From the NCBI RefSeq assembly GCF_002797895.1, contig NZ_PGES01000001.1, positions 1-64,000 of the forward strand: a stretch of 64,000 nucleotides of DNA, read 5' to 3'. The DNA comes from Janthinobacterium sp. 67 (lineage in GTDB: Bacteria; Pseudomonadota; Gammaproteobacteria; Burkholderiales; Burkholderiaceae_D). Positions 5,216-44,446 of this stretch are shown here, one piece after another. Within the stretch, counting starts at the first letter, position 1. Each line of letters opens with the position of its first letter. A program made the translations under genes and the position numbers. Under the pieces are notes generated by a model that made no database searches, was not told where the DNA came from, and was given only the letters and a program-made list of their open reading frames with translations.

Positions 5216-6262
5216 ATGGCTTACCTTCAACTGAGCAATATCGAAAAATTCTTTGGCGAGCACCGCGCCATCAAGGGCATCGACCTGGAAATCCGGCAGG
5301 GCGAGTTCGTCGTCTTCGTCGGACCGTCCGGCTGCGGCAAGTCCACCTTGCTGCGCCTGATCGCGGGCCTCGAGCCGATCGACGGCGGCAAGCTGTCGCT
5401 CGACGGGCGCGACATCACGGCCCTGCCATCGTCCAAGCGCGACCTGGCGATGGTGTTCCAGTCGTATGCGCTGTACCCGCACATGACGGTGTTCCAGAAC
5501 ATGTCGTTCGCGCTGAAACTGGCCGGCGTCGATCCCGCCATCATCCGCGAGAAGGTCGACAAGGCGGCCGCCATCCTCGACCTGGGGAAATACCTGGAGC
5601 GCACGCCGAAGGAGCTGTCGGGCGGCCAGCGCCAGCGGGTGGCCATCGGCCGCGCCATCGTGCGCGACCCGAAGGTGTTCCTGTTCGACGAACCGCTGTC
5701 GAACCTGGACGCGGCACTGCGCGTGCAGACGCGCATCGAGATCGCCAAGCTGCACCGCGAACTGGGCGCCACCACGATCTACGTCACGCATGACCAGGTG
5801 GAAGCGATGACCCTGGCCGACAGGGTCGTCGTGCTGCGCGACGGGCAGATCGAGCAGCATGGCTCGCCCCTGGAACTGTATGACCGTCCCGCCAACCGCT
5901 TTGTCGCGCAATTCATCGGCACGCCCAGCATGAACGTGGTGCCGGCCGACGCGGCGCCGCAGCTGCTGGCGCAGGCGGGCAGCGCGGCGCAGGCGGACGG
6001 CTTTGTCGGCATCCGCCCCGAACATGTGCACCTGGGCGCGGCGCAGCCGGGCAGCGTGCCCGTCACCGTCGACCTGGTGGAATCCTTGGGCGTGGAAACC
6101 CTGACCTATGTGCGCTTGCCGAACAATGTGCAGGTGGTCTCGCGCGGCGCCGAGCGCAGCAGCCTGCAGCCGGGCCAGCAGACGCATTTGACGTTCGAGC
6201 CGGGCTTCGTCCATTATTTTGACCGCGCCGGCAAGACCTATGCCGCCGCCAAGGGAGTTTGA
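5216..6262 (+). CDS. mtlK: Polyol ABC transporter ATP-binding protein (UgpC/MalK type)
   Basis: Cytoplasmic ATPase of 348 residues that drives the importer. Walker A GPSGCGKST is at residues 36-44, the LSGGQ signature at 134-138, Walker B VFLFDE at about 154-159, and the switch histidine in YVTHDQ near 189. The C-terminal TOBE-like region (about 235-340, GIRPEHVHLG) is the regulatory domain common to MalK/UgpC proteins. The next gene begins 1 base after the stop, indicating tight coupling to the dehydrogenase. Confidence 0.93.
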   Translation: MAYLQLSNIEKFFGEHRAIKGIDLEIRQGEFVVFVGPSGCGKSTLLRLIAGLEPIDGGKLSLDGRDITALPSSKRDLAMVFQSYALYPHMTVFQNMSFALKLAGVDPAIIREKVDKAAAILDLGKYLERTPKELSGGQRQRVAIGRAIVRDPKVFLFDEPLSNLDAALRVQTRIEIAKLHRELGATTIYVTHDQVEAMTLADRVVVLRDGQIEQHGSPLELYDRPANRFVAQFIGTPSMNVVPADAAPQLLAQAGSAAQADGFVGIRPEHVHLGAAQPGSVPVTVDLVESLGVETLTYVRLPNNVQVVSRGAERSSLQPGQQTHLTFEPGFVHYFDRAGKTYAAAKGV

Positions 6263-35359: not shown

Positions 35360-37279
35360 ATGGCTGTCTCCGAAAAGCAAACCCTGGGTTTTCAGACCGA
35401 AGTGAAGCAAATGCTGCACCTGATGATCCATTCCCTGTACTCGAACAAGGAAATCTTCCTGCGCGAATTGATCTCGAACGCGTCCGACGCGGCCGACAAA
35501 TTGCGCTTTGAAGCGATCGATAACGACGCCCTGTACGGCAACGATCACGAATTGAAGATCAAGGTCAGCTTCGACAAGGATGCGCGCACCATCACCATTT
35601 CCGACAACGGCATCGGCATGACCCGTGACGAGGCGATCTCGCACCTGGGCACCATCGCCAAGTCGGGCACCAAGGAATTCTTCGGCAAGCTGTCGGGCGA
35701 CCAGCAGCAGGACGCGGCCCTGATCGGCCAGTTCGGCGTGGGCTTCTATTCGGGCTTCATCGTCGCCGACAAGATCACCGTCGAAACGCGCCGCGCCGGC
35801 GCGGACGCCTCCGAAGGCGTGCGCTGGGAATCGGCCGGCGAAGGCGACTACAGCATCGAGACCATCGACAAACCGTCGCGCGGCACGGACATCATCCTGC
35901 ACCTGCGCGAAGGCGAAGACGAATTGCTGTCGAGCTGGAAGATCAAGTCCATCATCCGCAAGTACTCGGACCATATCTCGCTGCCGATCGTGATGCAGAA
36001 GGAAGAGTGGGACGACGAGAAAAAAGAAACCGTCCTGAAAGACGAATTCGAAACCGTCAACCAGGCCAGCGCACTGTGGGCCCGCAACAAGGCCGACATC
36101 ACGCCGGAACAGTACGACGAATTCTACAAGCACGTGTCGCACGACTTCCAGTCGCCGCTCACGCACACGCACAACCGCGTCGAAGGCCGCAGCGAATACA
36201 CGCAGCTGCTGTACATCCCGGCCAAGGCGCCATTCGACATGTGGGACCGCAACAAGCGCGGCGGCATCAAGCTGTACGTCAAGCGCGTCTTCATCATGGA
36301 CGACGCCGAGCAGCTGATGCCGACGTACCTGCGCTTCGTGCGCGGGGTGATCGACTCGGCCGACCTGCCGCTGAACGTGTCGCGTGAAATCCTGCAGGAA
36401 TCGCGCGACGTCAAGGTGATCCGCGAAGGCTCGACCAAGCGCGTGCTGGGCATGCTGGAAGAACTGGCGAACGCGGACGAGCAGGACAAGAAGGACAAGT
36501 ACGCCGTCTTCTGGAAGGAATTCGGCCAGGTGCTGAAAGAAGGCATCGGCGAAGATGCGGCCAACAAGGAACGCCTGGCCAAGCTGCTGCGCTTTGCCTC
36601 GACGGCCAACGACAGCGACGAACAAATCACCTCGTTCGCCGACTACGTGGCGCGCATGAAGGAAGGCCAGGACAAGATCTATTACGTCACGGCCGACAAC
36701 TACGCCGCCGCCAAGAACAGCCCGCACCTGGAAATCTTCCGCAAGAAGGGCGTCGAAGTGCTGCTGCTGACGGACCGTGTCGACGAATGGATGCTGTCCT
36801 TCCTGCAGGACTTCGAAGGCAAGGAACTGGTCTCCGTCGCCAAGGGTGGCCTGGACCTGGGCGCGCTGGAAGACGAAGCGGAAAAGAAAGAACACGAAGA
36901 AACGGAAACCTCGTACGCCGACCTGGTGGGCAAGATGAAGACGGTGCTGTCCGACAAGGCCAAGGACGTGCGCGTCACGTTCCGTCTGACCGATTCGCCA
37001 GCCTGCCTGGTGGCCGACGAAAACGAATTGTCGGGCAACCTGCTGCGCATGTTGAAGGCTGCTGGCCAGAGCGCGCCGGAATCGAAGCCGATTTTGGAAA
37101 TCAATCCGAACCACCCGCTGGTGACGCGCCTGAAATACGAAGACGCGGAAGGCGGCAAGTTCGGCGACTGGGCCAACATCCTGTTCGACCAGGCCATGCT
37201 GGCCGAAGGCGGCTCGCTGGCCGATCCTGCCAGTTTCGTGAAACGCCTCAACGAATTGCTGCTCAATTCGGCGAAGTAA
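35360..37279 (+). CDS. htpG: Chaperone HtpG (Hsp90)
   Basis: Cytoplasmic ATP-dependent chaperone of 639 residues, full length. The GHKL ATPase is at the N-terminus: [42 protein letters not shown] and [15 protein letters not shown]. The middle domain carries [24 protein letters not shown] site lies just upstream of the ATG. It is monocistronic and closes in a strong terminator. No heat-shock promoter of clear quality was found in the 88-base gap. Confidence 0.97.
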
Positions 37280-37300
37280 TTCCTTTGCCGTGGTACGTAG

Positions 37301-37327
37301 GTCGGATTAGCGTAAGCGTAATCCGAC
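37301..37327. repeat. REP-like palindrome GTCGGATTA, copy 3
   Basis: GTCGGATTA (37301-37309) and TAATCCGAC (37319-37327) flank GCGTAAGCG. It is the third copy of the family at 11424 and 11527, again directly between a stop codon and a terminator. Confidence 0.75.
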
Positions 37328-37347
37328 ACGGCGGCTGATGCATCCAG

Positions 37348-37382
37348 GCCGGCCCTTTCCTCGTGAAAGGGCCGGCTTTTTT
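37348..37382 (+). terminator. Rho-independent terminator of htpG
   Basis: A perfect 12-bp stem (37348-37359 with 37365-37376), 5-base loop and six T form a strong terminator after htpG and its REP copy. Confidence 0.9.
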
Positions 37383-37508
37383 CATGGCAGATGTTCAGCC
37401 CCGCATGCGCGTGCCCCAAGCCCTGGCAGCGGCGACTTCAGGCATAATTGCCCCTTGTTGAATTTAATCCGTCAATGGCCGGCATGGCCGTTGGTGCAGG
37501 AGCCAGTC

Positions 37509-38072
37509 ATGTCAGTGAGTACCCGCGACGCCCTATTGAAAAGCGCAGAGATCCACCTGCGTTCGAAAGGCTACGCCGCTTTCAGTTATGCCGATTTGTC
37601 GGAAGAAATTGGCATACGCAAGGCCAGCATCCACCATCATTTTCCCACCAAGGAAAACCTTGGCGTGGCCTTGATCACGCAATACATCGAGGTGTTTACG
37701 GAAAAGCTGCAAACGATCGATGCGGCGCATGCCGATCCGGTCGCACGCCTGCGCGAGTTCGGCGGGCTGTTCCAGGCCAGCGCCAACGATCATTTGCTGC
37801 CGCTGTGCGGCGCGCTCGCGGCCGAAATGGCGGCGCTGCCCGAATCGCTGCAGGCCCTGGGCCGGCAGTTGATGGCGCAGCAGCTGGACTGGATGGAAAA
37901 CAATCTCGTGCAGGCGGCGCAGCTGCACGGCTGGACCTTGCGGAAAGCGCCGAAGGATTATGCCTTCATGCTGCTCAGCGCCTTGGAGGGCGCCAGCTTT
38001 ATCGGCTGGGCCCTGGGGCCTTCGACCGATCCGCTGGCCGCGTTTCATTACCTGCTCGACAATCTGGCGTAG
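37509..38072 (+). CDS. TetR-family regulator
   Basis: Transcription repressor-type protein of 187 residues. The HTH (about 8-55) reads LLKSAEIHLRSKGYAAFSYA and EEIGIRKASIHHHFPTKENL, close to AcrR/TetR groups. The rest is a helical ligand domain. CAGGAG precedes the ATG at 37509. It is isolated, with a convergent membrane-protein gene after it; target and ligand are unknown. Confidence 0.87.
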   Translation: MSVSTRDALLKSAEIHLRSKGYAAFSYADLSEEIGIRKASIHHHFPTKENLGVALITQYIEVFTEKLQTIDAAHADPVARLREFGGLFQASANDHLLPLCGALAAEMAALPESLQALGRQLMAQQLDWMENNLVQAAQLHGWTLRKAPKDYAFMLLSALEGASFIGWALGPSTDPLAAFHYLLDNLA

Positions 38073-38087
38073 CGCTGGCCAGCCCGC

Positions 38088-38504
38088 TCAGGCCAACAGG
38101 GCTGGCTTGGCGATCATCAGCGCGCAGATGGTCAAAAACACGGCCAGCTTGATGCACAGCCAGATTCCCAGTCTGGCGCCCGCCTGCGCGTATCCCTGTT
38201 CCACCTTCTCTTCCACCTTGTCCGCCCAGAAATGGTCGATGGCTTGCGCGCCGATAAAAAGCGCGAGGGACAGCCGCATCCAGCCCATCTGCAGCCAGGC
38301 CCATTGTTGCTGGTACAGCAGGATCAGCCCGCCGAGAAGCAGCAGCCAGCCTGCGACGCCGATCTGCTGATGGAGTTTGTGTAATGTATCGCGGCCGGCG
38401 GGCTCGCGCATCAGGCCGAGCAGGCGCGGCGTCAGCATCATCGGGCCGATGAAGGCGATGGCTGCGACGATGTGCAATATCAGCAGGAATGTATAGGTGT
38501 TCAT
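38088..38504 (-). CDS. Small integral membrane protein (DUF2269-like)
   Basis: A 138-residue protein with four hydrophobic helices (about 5-25, 45-65, 73-92 and 112-135). The N-terminus LLILHIVAAIAFIGPMM and the interhelix LHKLHQQIGVAGWL resemble DUF2269-type membrane proteins of unknown role, with conserved histidines that could bind heme or metal. It is divergent from the TetR gene at 38585 and may be one of its targets. Confidence 0.7.
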   Translation of the reverse strand: MNTYTFLLILHIVAAIAFIGPMMLTPRLLGLMREPAGRDTLHKLHQQIGVAGWLLLLGGLILLYQQQWAWLQMGWMRLSLALFIGAQAIDHFWADKVEEKVEQGYAQAGARLGIWLCIKLAVFLTICALMIAKPALLA

Positions 38505-38557
38505 GGCGTTCTCGTATCGGCAAGGACAGTTGTTTGAGGAACGTTTAGAATAAGTTT

Positions 38558-38572
38558 TACTACCTACTTACG
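38558..38572. promoter_or_regulatory. Possible TetR operator half-site (CTACCTACT)
   Basis: The CTACCTACT at 38560-38568 lies between the divergent TetR and membrane-protein genes. The same 9 bases occur (minus strand) inside the palindrome at 42099-42120 upstream of the old yellow enzyme operon, hinting at one regulator for both promoters. Confidence 0.45.
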
Positions 38573-38584
38573 CTACTCGCATTC

Positions 38585-39214
38585 ATGGCAAAAACTGCAG
38601 CGCATGCGGAGCCCCGCAAGCGGCCGTCCCAGGCCAGATCGGCCGCCACCGTCGCGGCGATGGTGGAGGCGGCTGCTCGCATTATTGAGGTGCGGGGCTG
38701 GGCCGCGTTGACGACGAATCATGTTGCCGAGCTCTCTGGCGTCAGCATCGGCTCCCTGTACCAGTACTTCCCGTCCAAAGAGGCGCTGCTGGCCGAACTG
38801 GTGCGCCGCGAACGCGCGATGCTGCTGCACGACGTGGGGCTAGCCATGGCGCTGGACGGAGAGCTGCCGTTCGCGATACAGCAAGGTGTGATGGCCGGCC
38901 TGGCGCACCAGTTCAGGCGCCCGGCGCTTGCGCTTGCGCTGGAATCGGCGCCGTCGTCGCCATCCTTGCAGCGTGAGGACGAGGCCTTGCGGCAGGCGCT
39001 TGCCGGCCAGCTCGCGGGGTTGCTGGCGCGTCATGGCGTCGCCGATCCTGATATGGCCGCCGCCGACGTGATTGCGCTGTGCCGCGGCATCATCGACGCC
39101 GCGGCGCTGCGGGGAGAAACGGATATGGCGTCGCTTGCCCGGCGCCTGGGACGCGCGGTCCACGGCTACCTGGACACGGCGGCACCTGCCAGGGAAGCCG
39201 CCGCCAGCGCTTAA
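38585..39214 (+). CDS. TetR-family regulator of the old yellow enzyme operon (probable)
   Basis: Repressor-type protein of 209 residues. The HTH (about 20-70) reads VEAAARIIEVRGWAALTTNH and SGVSIGSLYQYFPSKEALL; the C-terminal domain is AefR-like. Its stop shares the tetranucleotide TTAA with the stop of the convergent DsbA-like gene. Position beside the stress operon, and a shared operator-like word at 38560 and 42109-42120, suggest it represses that operon. The start at ATG 38585 lacks a strong ribosome site. Confidence 0.85.
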   Translation: MAKTAAHAEPRKRPSQARSAATVAAMVEAAARIIEVRGWAALTTNHVAELSGVSIGSLYQYFPSKEALLAELVRRERAMLLHDVGLAMALDGELPFAIQQGVMAGLAHQFRRPALALALESAPSSPSLQREDEALRQALAGQLAGLLARHGVADPDMAAADVIALCRGIIDAAALRGETDMASLARRLGRAVHGYLDTAAPAREAAASA

Positions 39215-39912
39215 GGGAGGATGCAGCCGTCCAGGCCACACATCTCCCCGTCCGATGCGGCCAGGTTCTCTTGGGATTGCGCATGGAGGTTCTCCAGCGC
39301 CTGCCTGAAAACTTCTGGCGGCTGCGCGCCGGAAATGTGCGCCCCATTTCCGAAAACGAACAGCGGCACGCCGGAAGCGATGCGCGAGGCGCTGCGCTCA
39401 TCGTCCTGCACTTGCTGGCGCAATTGCGGTGTCGACCAGGCGCGCTGCACCGCCTCGGCAGGCACGCCCGCCTGTGCCGCGAGCAGGGCGAGAGAATCGC
39501 GGTCGAACAGCGACTGGCCGTGCGAAATGCTCTGTGCATACAGCACTTCGGCCAGGCGCTGCTGCAATGCCGCGTCGCCGGCGGCCTTGACCAGCATGTG
39601 CGCGTCCATGGTGTCGCCAAACAGCATGCTGTCGAAGCGGTAGTCCAGGCCTTCCGCGGCCCCATGCGACTGCACCGAGTACAGCATGCCCTCGGCGGCC
39701 AGCGGATCGCGAAACTTTTTCAGCAAGGCCGCCTTGATCGGTTCCGCCGGATGGCCTGGCGCGATGCGGTAGGCGCGCAGCCTGACCTGCACGGCGTCTT
39801 TGTGCGCGAAAGCGGCCAGGGCTTTGTCGAAGCGGCGTTTGGCGATCCAGCACCAGGGGCAGACGAAATCGGACCAGATGTCGACGACCAGCGTTGGTGT
39901 GTTGTTTTTCAT
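39211..39912 (-). CDS. DsbA-family (FrnE-like) thiol oxidoreductase, cytoplasmic
   Basis: Thioredoxin-fold protein of 233 residues without a signal peptide. The N-terminus VDIWSDFVCPWCWIAKRRF has the redox CPWC at Cys18-Cys21; the C-terminal SGVPLFVFGNGAHISGAQ holds the cis-Pro loop (GVP). Members work in polyketide modification or oxidative-stress defence (FrnE of Deinococcus). GGAG precedes the ATG at 39912. It is the last gene of the operon that begins with the OYE-OsmC fusion. Confidence 0.87.
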   Translation of the reverse strand: MKNNTPTLVVDIWSDFVCPWCWIAKRRFDKALAAFAHKDAVQVRLRAYRIAPGHPAEPIKAALLKKFRDPLAAEGMLYSVQSHGAAEGLDYRFDSMLFGDTMDAHMLVKAAGDAALQQRLAEVLYAQSISHGQSLFDRDSLALLAAQAGVPAEAVQRAWSTPQLRQQVQDDERSASRIASGVPLFVFGNGAHISGAQPPEVFRQALENLHAQSQENLAASDGEMCGLDGCILP

Positions 39913-39973
39913 GGTTGCTCCTTGAATGGCCGGCCCGGCGTGCACGCATGCCAGGCCGGCTGATGCGGCGGTA

Positions 39974-40306
39974 TCAAGCCTTGTCGAACGCGTCCAGCAC
40001 GTGGGTGCTGTACACAAGGGCGGCGCCCGCATTGAGGTTGATCGCCACGCCGAGCGCCTCGGCAATTTCCTCGGTGGTGACGCCAAGTTTCTTGGCGGCG
40101 GCAGCGTGGAAGGCGATGCAGCCGTCGCAGCGCGTCGTGACGGCCACTGCCAGCGCAATCAGTTCCCGCGTTTTCGCATCGAGATGGTTGGTCTTGTCGC
40201 CGGCGCCGCCCAGTGCGGCGATGCCTTTCATGGTGTCGGGCGTCAATGCGTTCAATTGCAACGCACGCGTGTTGATGTCTTGCCGAGCTTGTTTCCAGTC
40301 TTCCAT
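39974..40306 (-). CDS. Carboxymuconolactone decarboxylase / AhpD-like protein
   Basis: A 110-residue alpha-helical protein of the AhpD-like fold. The redox motif CDGCIAFH (Cys60, Cys63, His67) is complete, so it is likely a peroxidase or peroxide-related thiol enzyme rather than a true decarboxylase. It lies between the OYE-OsmC gene (57 bases upstream) and the DsbA-like gene (61 bases downstream) and belongs to the same stress operon. Confidence 0.87.
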   Translation of the reverse strand: MEDWKQARQDINTRALQLNALTPDTMKGIAALGGAGDKTNHLDAKTRELIALAVAVTTRCDGCIAFHAAAAKKLGVTTEEIAEALGVAINLNAGAALVYSTHVLDAFDKA

Positions 40307-40363
40307 GTTTTCCTCGCTATGTAGGCGCTTGCGCGCGGGTTGGGTTGATTCCAGGGAGGGGAA

Positions 40364-42025
40364 TCAGGCCTCGATAATTTCCAGGGTGGGCAGCATGCGG
40401 ATGGCCTTCGAGAAATTGGCCAGGTTGACCGACGTTTTGGTGACGGCCTGGTGCAGCGCCTCGACGCGCTCGCGCGAGGCATCCGTGCGCAGCCGCACCA
40501 CGTAGCTGACTTCGTCGTAGCCGGGATTGACGTTCTCGTCCAGGCCAAGGAAGCCGCGCAGGTCCAGCTTGCCATCCGTTTCGATTTCCAGGCTGTGCAC
40601 GGTGATGCCCATGGTCGCCGCATTGGCCGCGTAACCGACTGACAGGCAGGCGTTGAGGGCAGCCATCAGCAGCTCTTGCGGATTGGGCGCCGTGTTTTGG
40701 CCCAGCAATTCATGCGGTTCGTCCGAGGCGATCTCGAAATGGCGCGCATGCTTTTCACCACCGAGCACATAGTGGCTGACGGTGGCCACGCTACGCGTCT
40801 GGTGTTGCCACCGGGTCTTGACGTTGAAACGCGCCTCGCCCTTGCCGGGATGCTCTGCCACGCCTTGCGCGAATTGCTGCAATGCTTGCACGTTGATGCC
40901 ATTGAGCATGTTGGCACCGGCCGCCGCGCCATACGCGGGATAGTCGGTATAGCCATGGGACGGAGCGCCGCTGGCGCCGTAATAGGTCGAGCGGTCGCTG
41001 TCGGCCAGCGGCCAGTTGTTTTGCATGCGCTCCACCAGATCCGGGTTGGAGATGAACGGCATGCCGAAGGCGATCAGATCGAGGTCGCCCTTTTCCAGCT
41101 CGCTGCGCGCCAGTTCCTGCGTGAAGCCGCCCGCGCCGATCAGGGTGCCGTGATAAGCCTGGCGGAATTGCGCGCCAAAGCCGGGCGGCACTTGCGCCGC
41201 CGTGATGGTGGGCTGGTAGTTCAGGTGCACATAGGCCAGTTGCCTCGTATCGAGCGCCTGCGCCACGCTGCTCCACACCTGCGCTTCGTCCGCATAGGCG
41301 CGCATGTCGTACAGGCGGCCGAACGGCGAGATGCGCACGCCGACCTTGCCGCCGCCGATGGCGGCCGACAGGGCGTCTATGGTCTCGAGCAAAAAGCGCT
41401 GGCGGTTGGCGATGCTGCCGCCGTACTGGTCCGTGCGAGTATTGACGGCGCTGCTGAGGAACTGGTCGAACAGGAAGCCGTTGGCGGCCATGATCTCGAT
41501 CCCGTCAAAGCCGGCTTCGATAGCGACTTTTGCCGCATGCACGAAGTCGGCGGTGACGCGCGCGATCTCGTCGACGGTCAGCGCGCGCGGCACGCTGGGC
41601 AGCACCGGTCCCGCCTTGCCCGGTTCGATCCAGGCATAGACGGTGGTGTTTTCCGCCGCCACGTCGCTGGGACCGACGGGCGCCGCGTTGCCAGGCTGGA
41701 TAGACACATGCGACATGCGGCCCACGTGCCACAGCTGGGCGAAGATCTTGCCGCCCTTGGCATGCACGGCATCGGTGACCTGGCGCCAGCCCTGGCCCTG
41801 GGTGCTGCTGTAGATGCCCGGCGTGTACAAATAGCCGCGGCCTTCATCGGAGACGGGCAAGCCTTCGGTGACGATCAGGCCGGCCGAGGCGCGCTGGGCG
41901 TAATACAGCGCGGTGAGCGCGTCGGGATTGTTTTCGAGCGTGCGCGTGCGCGTCATCGGCGCCATGACGACGCGGTTGGCCAAGGAAATGCCGGACAGGT
42001 CATAGGGAGTGAACAGTTGATGCAT
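40364..42025 (-). CDS. Old yellow enzyme-OsmC fusion protein
   Basis: A single uninterrupted frame of 553 residues joins two enzymes. Residues 1-360 are an FMN alkene reductase (NRVVMAPMTRTRTLENN, FAQLWHVGRMSH, TDQYGGSIANRQRF, and LIGAGGFTQELA). Residues about 395-553 are OsmC-like (TRWQHQTRSV, APNPQELLMAALNACLSVGY with Cys460). In the OYE site the usual H-x-x-N/H reads M179-A-A-N182, so the substrate-binding histidine is missing. The second OsmC cysteine is replaced by Thr531-Ser532, as in one known OsmC subgroup. Both may act on electrophiles or peroxides; activity of the OYE half is uncertain. Confidence 0.88.
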   Translation of the reverse strand: MHQLFTPYDLSGISLANRVVMAPMTRTRTLENNPDALTALYYAQRASAGLIVTEGLPVSDEGRGYLYTPGIYSSTQGQGWRQVTDAVHAKGGKIFAQLWHVGRMSHVSIQPGNAAPVGPSDVAAENTTVYAWIEPGKAGPVLPSVPRALTVDEIARVTADFVHAAKVAIEAGFDGIEIMAANGFLFDQFLSSAVNTRTDQYGGSIANRQRFLLETIDALSAAIGGGKVGVRISPFGRLYDMRAYADEAQVWSSVAQALDTRQLAYVHLNYQPTITAAQVPPGFGAQFRQAYHGTLIGAGGFTQELARSELEKGDLDLIAFGMPFISNPDLVERMQNNWPLADSDRSTYYGASGAPSHGYTDYPAYGAAAGANMLNGINVQALQQFAQGVAEHPGKGEARFNVKTRWQHQTRSVATVSHYVLGGEKHARHFEIASDEPHELLGQNTAPNPQELLMAALNACLSVGYAANAATMGITVHSLEIETDGKLDLRGFLGLDENVNPGYDEVSYVVRLRTDASRERVEALHQAVTKTSVNLANFSKAIRMLPTLEIIEA

Positions 42026-42098
42026 GTAATGCCTCGCAAAGGATCGGATGCGCCGTGGCGCGGAAGGATTGCCGGGTGAAATACCGGGTGCGAAATGA

Positions 42099-42120
42099 GT
42101 CTACCATCTAGTAGGTAGAC
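42099..42120. promoter_or_regulatory. TetR-type operator upstream of OYE-OsmC operon
   Basis: GTCTACC (42099-42105) and GGTAGAC (42114-42120) form a 7-8-7 inverted repeat, 74 bases before the start of the fusion gene on the minus strand. NemR-type operators upstream of N-ethylmaleimide reductase genes have a similar shape. Confidence 0.6.
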
Positions 42121-42191
42121 AAGTCAACCGGCCGCAGCGCCGGCAAAATCGCTATGATGCGGCTTTGCACGGGACGATACGGAGGATGGCA

Positions 42192-42557
42192 ATGAAGAAG
42201 CGCCTGATGGCTGGCCTGGGCGCGCATGCGCTGGGCTGCCTGCTGTTTATTGGGTTGAGCTGGCTGGGATTTTTCCTGTATACGCAGCTGTTCGGCAGCC
42301 TGGGCTCGCGCGGCGTGGCCGGCGGGCTGGCCCTGCTGCTCGTGTTTTACGTGTACGCGGGCACGAATCTGCTGCTGGCGCTGCTGCCGCCCGGCAGGTG
42401 GAAGCCCGTGCTGTGCGCCGTGCTGGGCGCGGCCGTGCTCGCGTATCTGCTGCCCCAGCATCCGCTGCGGGCGATCTACTTCTGCGTGCTGTCGGGCGGC
42501 TTGAGCTGGCTGGCCGTGCTGGCCAGCGCGCGTTTAAGCGGATACCTGCGCGGCTGA
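42192..42557 (+). CDS. Small integral membrane protein of unknown function
   Basis: A 121-residue protein with about four hydrophobic stretches (GCLLFIGLSWLGFFLYTQLF, GLALLLVFYVYAGTNLLLAL and two more). GGAGG at 42181-42185 gives proper spacing only to the ATG at 42192, not to ATG 42186. I do not recognise a family. Its last 24 bases overlap the convergent hydrolase gene. Confidence 0.65.
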   Translation: MKKRLMAGLGAHALGCLLFIGLSWLGFFLYTQLFGSLGSRGVAGGLALLLVFYVYAGTNLLLALLPPGRWKPVLCAVLGAAVLAYLLPQHPLRAIYFCVLSGGLSWLAVLASARLSGYLRG

Positions 42558-43286
42558 CAGGCCCGAAATAAAAGCGGCGACGGCGACGGCGGCCGCTTCC
42601 GGCGCCGCCTGCAGCAGCATGTGCGGCGCGGCGATGTCGATCACTTGCGCGCCCGCTGCCCGCCGCCGTATCTGCACGGCGTTCGCTGGCGGCACCAGGC
42701 GGTCGTGAAGGGCGCGCAGATACAGCACGGGCAGGCTGCCGCGCGCGAAGCTGCGCGAGGCGTCCTTTTCGCGAATTTCCAGCACGGCGCGCAGGCGCTG
42801 GCGCAGCGTTGCCGGCGGCACTTGCGCCAGCGCAGCGGCCAGTTCCGCCTGCAGTTGCGGCGTGGCGTAGGGCGCCAGCAGCGCCTGGCGCAGCGCGAAG
42901 CCGGGCAGGGCGCCAAAGGGCACGAGGCCCAGCAGGTGGCGCAGCGGCGCCAGCATGGGGCGCGGATTGCGCACGAATGAACAGCACAGGACCAGGGCGC
43001 GCATGCCGGGCGGCGGATCGGCGCGCAAAGCGGCCCCCAGCGGTCCCGAAAACGATTCGGCCAGCACGACGAAAGGACGGTCCCGCGGCAAGCGCTCGCG
43101 CACGTATGCTTCCAGCGCCGCATAGTCGAGTGGCGCGGCCGGATAGGCGATGGCCAGGGTGTCGATGGCGCCGTGCGCGCGCAAGGCGGCGTCGAAACGG
43201 TGGAACAGGCTGGCCGTGCCATCCATGCCGGGCAGGAGGACAAGCAGGGGCGAGGCGTGGGTTGATGTCGTCATTGCGGCCATCAT
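42534..43286 (-). CDS. Alpha/beta hydrolase
   Basis: A 250-residue hydrolase. The N-terminus LLVLLPGMDGTASLF contributes the oxyanion hole, the nucleophile is Ser in LAESFSGPLG (near residue 79), Asp lies in LRALHDRLVPP and His in AAPHMLLQ, so the triad is complete. No lid or signal peptide is evident. The start could be 43286 or ATG 43274; neither has a good ribosome site. Substrate is unknown. Confidence 0.82.
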   Translation of the reverse strand: MMAAMTTSTHASPLLVLLPGMDGTASLFHRFDAALRAHGAIDTLAIAYPAAPLDYAALEAYVRERLPRDRPFVVLAESFSGPLGAALRADPPPGMRALVLCCSFVRNPRPMLAPLRHLLGLVPFGALPGFALRQALLAPYATPQLQAELAAALAQVPPATLRQRLRAVLEIREKDASRSFARGSLPVLYLRALHDRLVPPANAVQIRRRAAGAQVIDIAAPHMLLQAAPEAAAVAVAAFISGLSAAQVSA

Positions 43287-43408
43287 AACAGCCGCGCCGG
43301 CGCACCCGCCGTCCGCCAGCCGCGCCGCATGGGCGCTGGCGCCATGCTAGAATCGCCGGCGCGCCATGCGTGGCCGCAAGAGCGGCCAAATCCCCGACAG
43401 ACAGAATC

Positions 43409-44446
43409 ATGCATATCATTTTTTCGAATTACCGCACCCTGGGCGGCGCCTTGCTGGCGGCGGCCTGCATCCTTTCCCAGCCCGCCCGCGCCACGGCGGC
43501 GCCCTCGGCGCCAGCCGGGAAAAGCCTGTCCTCCCTGCTGGCAGGCGGTCCCTTGCCGCGCCTGAGCGACGATGCGCAAGTGCGCGCCGTCCTGTTCGAT
43601 TTCTTCGGTTACGCGCGCGGCAGCTACACGGAAGACGATGAACTGCTGCTGGCACAGGCGCTCGAAGCGATCAGCGAAAAGCGCGACGCCACGCGTACCG
43701 TGCTGGCCGATGGCCGCCAGCTGCTGGCGTCGATGAACGACCGTAAGCAGGGCCGCGAACGCGGTGCCATGCTGCTCGACAAGCGCGGCACCATCATCGC
43801 CTTTGGCCTCGTCAATGGTCATTGCCGCCTGGAGGGCCAGCCGCTGGCGAAAGTCTGCAATCCCGATCCGAACGCCGTGCTGACGGTATTTCACCGCAAG
43901 GGCATGCTGGTCGGCGACGCGGCGCCCTTGCTGGCCTGGGCCCGGCAATTGCCGCCCATGCTGGCGCTGATCGCGGCCGACAAGGAAGCGGGCGCCGGCG
44001 GGCAGAAGATCGCCAGCGTCGAATATGTGCTGGCCCAGCCGGCCCTGCCGGGCTGGAACCGCGCCCAGCTGCCGCCCGCGTATCCGCCGGCGCTGCTGCC
44101 GCTGCTGCTCGATAAATCCACGGTGCTGACGTCGGCCGGCGCGGGCGTGTTTGCCTATCCTCTCACCTTGAAGGGCAAGAAACAGAACAATGTGCTCGAC
44201 CATGCGGAAGGCCGCCCGCCGCGCGACCTGGAAGTGGCGCTGCGCAGCTATGCCAGCTTCGACACGGTAGTCGAGCGCTACCGCCAGCTGGCCAAGGGCG
44301 CCCGGCTGCAGCGCAACGAGCGCACGGCCTACCTTGATGGCGACATGGGTCAGGGCAGCTACCGCGTCTATATCCGCAACACGGGCGCCGATGGCGTCAT
44401 GATCGACGTGGCGCTGTGGCAACGCAAGCTGGCCGCCAGCCGCTGA
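43409..44446 (+). CDS. Exported protein of unknown function
   Basis: A 345-residue protein with an N-terminal signal (MHIIFSNYRTLGGALLAAAC, cleavage near ARATA). I recognise no domain. Internal sequence shows a mostly alpha/beta pattern with CRLEGQPLAKVCNPDPNAVL giving a cysteine pair (about 142 and 152). The 43409 ATG begins the signal; the frame opens at 43370 with no support. It ends two bases before the stop of the convergent leucine-rich gene. Confidence 0.68.
   Translation: MHIIFSNYRTLGGALLAAACILSQPARATAAPSAPAGKSLSSLLAGGPLPRLSDDAQVRAVLFDFFGYARGSYTEDDELLLAQALEAISEKRDATRTVLADGRQLLASMNDRKQGRERGAMLLDKRGTIIAFGLVNGHCRLEGQPLAKVCNPDPNAVLTVFHRKGMLVGDAAPLLAWARQLPPMLALIAADKEAGAGGQKIASVEYVLAQPALPGWNRAQLPPAYPPALLPLLLDKSTVLTSAGAGVFAYPLTLKGKKQNNVLDHAEGRPPRDLEVALRSYASFDTVVERYRQLAKGARLQRNERTAYLDGDMGQGSYRVYIRNTGADGVMIDVALWQRKLAASR

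Follow-up and report, generated by a model that had tools for sequence, protein, structure and literature searches.

Allicin/thiosulfinate-tolerance (alt) clusters have been described in Pantoea ananatis, Burkholderia and Pseudomonas, including PfAR-1. Insertions in oye, dsbA, trx, kefC and ahpD of PfAR-1 led to higher allicin sensitivity, although the authors concede possible downstream effects of these insertions, and no such insertions turned up in osmC, sdr or tetR (PMC7119367). According to the same source, oye by itself did not confer allicin resistance, and osmC overexpression lines were not recovered (PMC7119367). The names altA (nemA), altJ (osmC) and altD (trxA) are given in PMC9933511. 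PMC12306174 describes altB as an SDR gene and reports higher thiosulfinate tolerance with altC/altE pairs. Reportedly, altB is the most conserved gene of three validated alt clusters; in the published mined set it was counted 28 times, versus 41 for altR and 38 for altC (PMC12306174), and an SDR is thus not a strict requirement of an alt cluster. The remaining names were assigned by identity from the plasmids of two onion isolates, Burkholderia cepacia (L150) and P. ananatis (L152), which carry the same gene set. Identities between the two (OYE 68.2%, SDR 82.0%, DsbA 39.4%, CMD 62.5%, TetR 39.6%, OsmC 28.7%, PatB-like 46.7%) lie within 1.5 points of those published for B. gladioli and P. ananatis (altA 67.9%, altB 81.3%, altC 38.5%, altE 62.5%, altR 40.1%, altJ 27.8%, altI 48.2%; PMC12306174).

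The stretch of DNA analysed here (the window; 64,000 nucleotides of Janthinobacterium sp. 67) shares with these clusters an old yellow enzyme (OYE), OsmC, CMD/AhpD, DsbA, and an AltR-like TetR regulator with the same type of operator, and homologues of altA, altC, altE, altR and altJ lie side by side within 37509-42025. It differs from them in that AltA and AltJ form one protein, and in that no match to the SDR (AltB of the cluster in genus genome G023) was found in its own genome at E ≤1e-40, in a search without a positive control. The features are as follows.

37382..42191, no strand: alt-type island, 4.8 kb, approximate ends; 17 of the 18 cluster-less relatives compared lack it at this site
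37509..38072, plus strand: AltR-like TetR regulator, from alignment; a frame read from 37338 would be longer and overlap a terminator-like stem
39211..39912, minus strand: DsbA-family gene with CPWC (AltC by identity match), from Pfam and plasmid comparison
39974..40306, minus strand: AhpD/CMD-family gene with CDGC (AltE by identity match), from Pfam and plasmid comparison
40364..42025, minus strand: fused AltA-AltJ gene (M-type OYE plus one-cysteine OsmC, 553 aa), from the open reading frame, Pfam and 6 of 40 genus genomes
40367..40909, minus strand: OsmC half, residues 373-553, from Pfam and the free-standing OsmC of G023
40646..40648, minus strand: codon of Cys460, the sole cysteine of the protein, from sequence and OsmC alignment
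40922..42025, minus strand: OYE half, residues 1-368, from Pfam and an alignment to G023's free-standing OYE
41474..41476, minus strand: codon of Phe184, which replaces the OYE tyrosine, from sequence and OYE alignment
41489..41491, minus strand: codon of Met179, which replaces the OYE histidine, from sequence and OYE alignment
42098..42127, minus strand: promoter-like TTGACT-18-TAGACT overlapping the operator, from consensus match (2 found in the region versus 1.0 expected)
42099..42120, no strand: predicted AltR-type operator, inverted repeat GTCTACC-N8-GGTAGAC, from sequence pattern

The fused gene runs from ATG to TGA through 553 codons without an internal stop. Oxidored_FMN (PF00724) covers residues 3-339 (E 7.8e-79; 265.8 bits versus a curated cut-off of 27) and OsmC (PF02566) covers residues 442-535 (E 5e-13; 49.8 bits versus 27.5), which agrees with a sequence-only reading that had proposed one frame joining the two domains. 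The NCBIfam N-ethylmaleimide reductase model (NF007899) scored 350.2 bits, below its curated cut-off of 403. The same 553-aa protein was found in 6 of 40 genus genomes, its own included (94%–100% identity), and a database cluster of 162 member sequences (P0002) has equal length, the same two Pfam domains and 96% identity. Such identical length across genomes and cluster indicates that the frame is not an artefact, and a sequencing error or frameshift was ruled out. The sequence-only reading had named single-domain homologues combined with a frame error as grounds for its rejection; most close homologues are indeed single-domain proteins, but no frame error joins the domains here.

P0002 was the only OYE-OsmC protein among the best 120 of 8,000 scored candidates in a protein search, and a search with the OsmC part (519 candidates of 0.55–1.75 times 553 aa) gave four proteins at E ≤1e-8, namely P0002, one GST-OsmC and two OsmC-PF11583 proteins. 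An order-level scan of 399 genomes at a cut-off of 1e-140 gave no match beyond its own genome, in which a second match to the OsmC half was absent at E ≤0.001. Among the papers listed in searches of an open-licence library, none had a title or abstract on an OYE-OsmC fusion or a Met-type OYE, and PMC12306174 has no occurrence of fusion, fused, osmc, methionine or janthinobacterium. The AltA-AltJ architecture is new within an already known system, and to it comes the active-site signature of AltA. The GST-OsmC protein (P0122) is 407 aa long and, like the two OsmC-PF11583 proteins (P0123 and P0124), has a single member sequence.

In classical OYEs, the ligand for the electron-withdrawing group is a His/Asn or His/His pair and the proton comes from a tyrosine, although water can stand in for the tyrosine in PETNR (PMC3659409). 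Neither the histidine of the H-x-x-N/H motif nor the proton-donor tyrosine is present in the fused protein, whose site is M179-A-A-N182-G-F184; the first four residues had been read correctly from the sequence, and Phe184 had been missed. Among 121 proteins (the query plus the best 120 listed), MAAN or MGAN was found in 109 and histidine at the Met179 position in the remaining 12. Across 197 usable aligned rows (P0122, typed 'Y', was left out), Met179 and Phe184 were found in 120 of 120 M-type rows versus 0 and 1 of 77 H-type rows, which carry His in 77/77 and Tyr in 76/77, counts that are not independent because many rows are closely related. T27, R63, Y67, S191, Y239, W251, Y270 and V351 likewise split the two types. 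A maximum-likelihood (ML) tree of 72 rows placed the M-type and fused rows on one side of a branch (support 100/100), inside the H-type when midpoint rooted; its H-type rows numbered 22 + 4, and the extra loci L004, L046 and L047 (of seven offered) had no row. As only two of the 120 M-type rows are fused (P0001 and P0002), these rows and the tree rule out Met179 as a lesion particular to the fused protein. The sequence-only reading would have been undermined by Met being standard in active members, and so it turned out: Met179 is fixed in the M-type, and oye of PfAR-1 contributes to allicin resistance (PMC7119367). We infer from matching gene order that the Oye of the PfAR-1 clone is M-type. 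M-type OYE genes are labelled alkene or N-ethylmaleimide reductases in the annotations seen, but an ordinary ene-reductase role for AltA is doubtful on the basis of these residues; enone reduction is still conceivable, since water can replace the tyrosine in PETNR. Cysteine was absent from 107 of 120 M-type versus 28 of 77 H-type rows, a depletion that is only suggestive given the kinship among rows and the 0–2 cysteines in the closest H-type relatives checked.

Gene neighbourhoods separated the two types as well. A scan of species-representative genomes, with up to 8 kb on each side, gave 8 M-type loci (in Stenotrophomonas, Pseudomonas, Raoultella and Vibrio) and 72 H-type loci among the best 80 listed; relatives of the proteins of the window and of G023 were looked for, and some loci were shortened by contig ends. 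Among these 80, OsmC, AhpD/CMD and an AltR-like TetR were each found near 8/8 M-type versus 0/72 H-type OYEs, followed by Trx (7/8 versus 0/72), DsbA (7/8 versus 3/72), SDR (7/8 versus 21/72) and glutathione reductase (1/8 versus 0/72). A separate draw of 398 phylum genomes gave eight other places at E ≤1e-110. One was M-type, with AhpD, SDR and OsmC in a 4.1-kb locus; the other seven had no AhpD, SDR or OsmC in similar-sized loci, with the motif unparsed in three. Both OYEs of the two onion-isolate plasmids are M-type. From this company, the M-type OYE is identified as the AltA protein of alt clusters, and Met179/Phe184 provides a testable AltA mark, which split cluster-bound from ordinary OYEs at every one of the 80 loci typed (8 M-type, 72 H-type). 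Among 72,556 plasmid records, 635 matched the OYE half at E ≤1e-90 (563 at 60%–80% identity), chiefly from Klebsiella, Enterobacter and E. coli. OsmC, TetR, CMD, DsbA and SDR genes were present in each of the three plasmid regions opened, and the fused form was found in none of the 635 records, where no match covered 80% of the query.

Two-cysteine OsmC/Ohr peroxidases are marked by a conserved cysteine pair. The fused protein has Cys460 alone, and, as the sequence-only reading had it, only the first OsmC cysteine is kept; Cys460 is also the sole cysteine of P0002 and of the proteins in the other five fused genomes. Aligned free-standing OsmCs from the clusters (n = 12) likewise have a single conserved cysteine, equivalent to Cys460, which rules out that the second cysteine was lost through fusion. 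Given the unfused M-type OYEs with Met179/Phe184 and these one-cysteine OsmCs, the altered active sites predate the fusion. The idea that fusion and residue loss together produced a changed activity therefore does not hold, as the two were separate events and M-type OYEs are mostly unfused. With its guess of thiol chemistry that reading was on the right track. The altered site was already there when the halves were joined.

Pantoea AltR, a repressor of its cluster acting at CAATCTAC-N6-GTAGATTG, requires Cys100 (PMC13178969). The window has a regulator with the sensor-cysteine position, since in the alignment of the 37509-38072 protein with Pantoea AltR the latter's cysteine 100 is matched, and an AltR-type box, the predicted operator 73 bp upstream of the fused start codon. 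Seven of the 40 genus genomes have this regulator, and they are the seven with an OYE of at least 90% identity; a second TetR (38585-39214) lacks the sensor-cysteine motif. In the P. ananatis plasmid, the box CAATCTAC-N6-GTAGATTG lies immediately upstream of the TetR gene, and the core CTAC-N6-GTAG is common to the other five fused loci. A related one-strand pattern was present in 7/8 M-type versus 1/72 H-type loci among the best 80 listed. TCTACCNNCTAGTAGNT has a single exact match in the 6.45-Mb genome, for a pattern composed after the site had been seen. With ≤2 mismatches the operator pattern had four matches (two overlapping at one site) versus 22 for a reversed control, i.e., no enrichment, and the exact match alone is notable.

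The CMD and DsbA genes lie directly behind the fused gene. Between the AltR and DsbA genes, 38088-39214 holds a UPF0093-like membrane gene and the second TetR, also seen in L041-L043 and L045 and not found in L044. The right-hand flanking gene was present in 26 genus genomes, and the fusion was missing from 20 of these; in 17 of the 18 fusion-less genomes compared, the flanks meet, either within 80 bp (11 genomes) or with ~540 bp of other DNA (6 genomes), and L161 was the one that differed. Base composition gave no foreign signal (GC 63.7% in the island versus 63.8% in the window).

A seventh genus genome, G023, carries the same type of cluster with the halves as separate genes (OYE ~90% and OsmC 89% identical to the fused halves), and with the SDR and other DNA between them. 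Its order is OYE, SDR, Trx and another short opposite-strand frame, OsmC, TetR, CMD, DsbA and glutathione reductase; AltR-type boxes precede OYE, OsmC and CMD, versus one box within 36500-43500 of the window. In the ML tree, seven fused rows formed one set (100/97) inside the M-type with the split G023 adjacent (99/91), from which we conclude that the AltA-AltJ fusion arose once. At the join, the OYE lacks its last few residues and stop, and OsmC its first residues; the TetR gene sits in a different place in fused loci than in G023. Because the outgroups are unfused, loss of the intervening DNA would be the simplest history. The OYE and OsmC halves are under equal purifying selection: dN/dS (NG86; six fused genes, 15 pairs) was 0.103 and 0.104, respectively, and 0.174 for the 24-codon linker. 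The G023 locus (L038) also has a 136-aa frame at 5696-6106 on the plus strand with a DsbA-like start (TLIVDIWSD) and without CPWC, which looks like a remnant.

We therefore favour, with a probability of roughly 0.65, the reading that this gene is the AltA-AltJ fusion of an alt-type thiol-stress island, with enzymes of one sulfur-electrophile pathway placed in one chain. It is grounded in comparisons establishing an intact conserved frame, the cluster company, an AltR-like regulator with its predicted operator, a single origin and purifying selection; the mechanism below draws on published phenotypes and general thiol chemistry. A thiol-reactive sulfur electrophile would modify the AltR cysteine and so free the operator of AltR, with joint transcription of the fused gene, CMD and DsbA as the result. 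Cys460 of the OsmC half may then accept the electrophilic sulfur of a thiosulfinate as a mixed disulfide, which the CxxC proteins CMD (CDGC) and DsbA (CPWC), or glutathione, could resolve, while the FMN/NAD(P)H half would reduce a further product of the toxin. A classical enone is an improbable substrate for this half, given Met and Phe in place of His and Tyr. The fusion would fix a 1:1 ratio and hold the two enzymes together. Weighing against this reading are the SDR search that gave no match, the failure of oye by itself to confer allicin resistance together with the possible downstream effects of the insertions, and the ability of water to replace the tyrosine in PETNR. More speculatively, and with the odds against it, AltA may have given up ene reduction and could use its FMN to reduce sulfur electrophiles, such as thiosulfinate products with a C=S or S-oxide group (thials, sulfines), with the coupled one-cysteine OsmC capturing the other sulfur fragment in a two-step detoxifying chain; if so, this activity came from replacing the oxygen-binding His by Met and the acid Tyr by Phe. 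An odd fused gene is in this way tied to a known defence against garlic- and onion-type plant sulfur toxins; its natural occurrence is evidence that both proteins serve one process, and one purified protein makes the reduction substrate of AltA directly testable.

The strongest competitor, to which we give somewhat under even odds, accepts the same system and takes the join as a neutral by-product of deletion, with independent enzymes for which the shared chain has no effect. The fused state in six of the seven genus genomes with the pair, against unfused genes at the other M-type loci examined, would fit such an accident, as would the less constrained linker (0.174 over 24 codons); yet the frame has stayed open across a dS of ~0.16–0.20 between species with no fission in six genomes, and one operator stands ahead of the joined gene. 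It is rather unlikely that the natural target is another electrophile or oxidant (e.g., isothiocyanates, quinones or polysulfides) instead of allicin-type compounds: M-type-like OYEs do occur on many Klebsiella, Enterobacter and E. coli plasmids from sources without an Allium link, but the published phenotypes concern allicin or thiosulfinates.

Two further readings concern catalysis. The sequence-only proposal, a novel thiol or peroxide enzyme dependent on FMN that came about by fusion plus residue loss and whose OYE half feeds the OsmC cysteine, draws on the single chain and single cysteine; it appears improbable, as both residue states occur without fusion and passage of electrons from FMN to Cys460 found no support in the sequence analyses made here. 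Slightly less probable still is a purely scaffolding OYE half, non-catalytic after the loss of His and Tyr. Replacement of both classical residues in 120/120 M-type rows might suggest this, but selection on the OYE half equals that on OsmC, and oye insertions in PfAR-1 show a phenotype (PMC7119367). Weighing further against a scaffold, T25, Q97, H100, R231 and G321 are invariant over the M and H types. These residues presumably have a role at the FMN.

Among solved proteins, morphinone reductase (2r14), GTN reductase (4jic) and PETNR (1gvo) share the domain of the OYE half (E 1e-97 to 8e-84); none of these three is M-type, and morphinone reductase keeps the histidine (HAANAC) where the window's OYE half has Met. 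Of solved proteins, an OsmC-like hypothetical protein (2opl, E 8.8e-38) was closest to the OsmC half; the first cysteine is kept, and the alignment shows a Ser near the second-cysteine place. It is free-standing and listed without a function, whereas the OsmC of the window is fused. P0009, P0014 and others of ~700–750 aa were tandem OYE-OYE proteins of the histidine type, and several of them combine an HxxN with an HxxH site.
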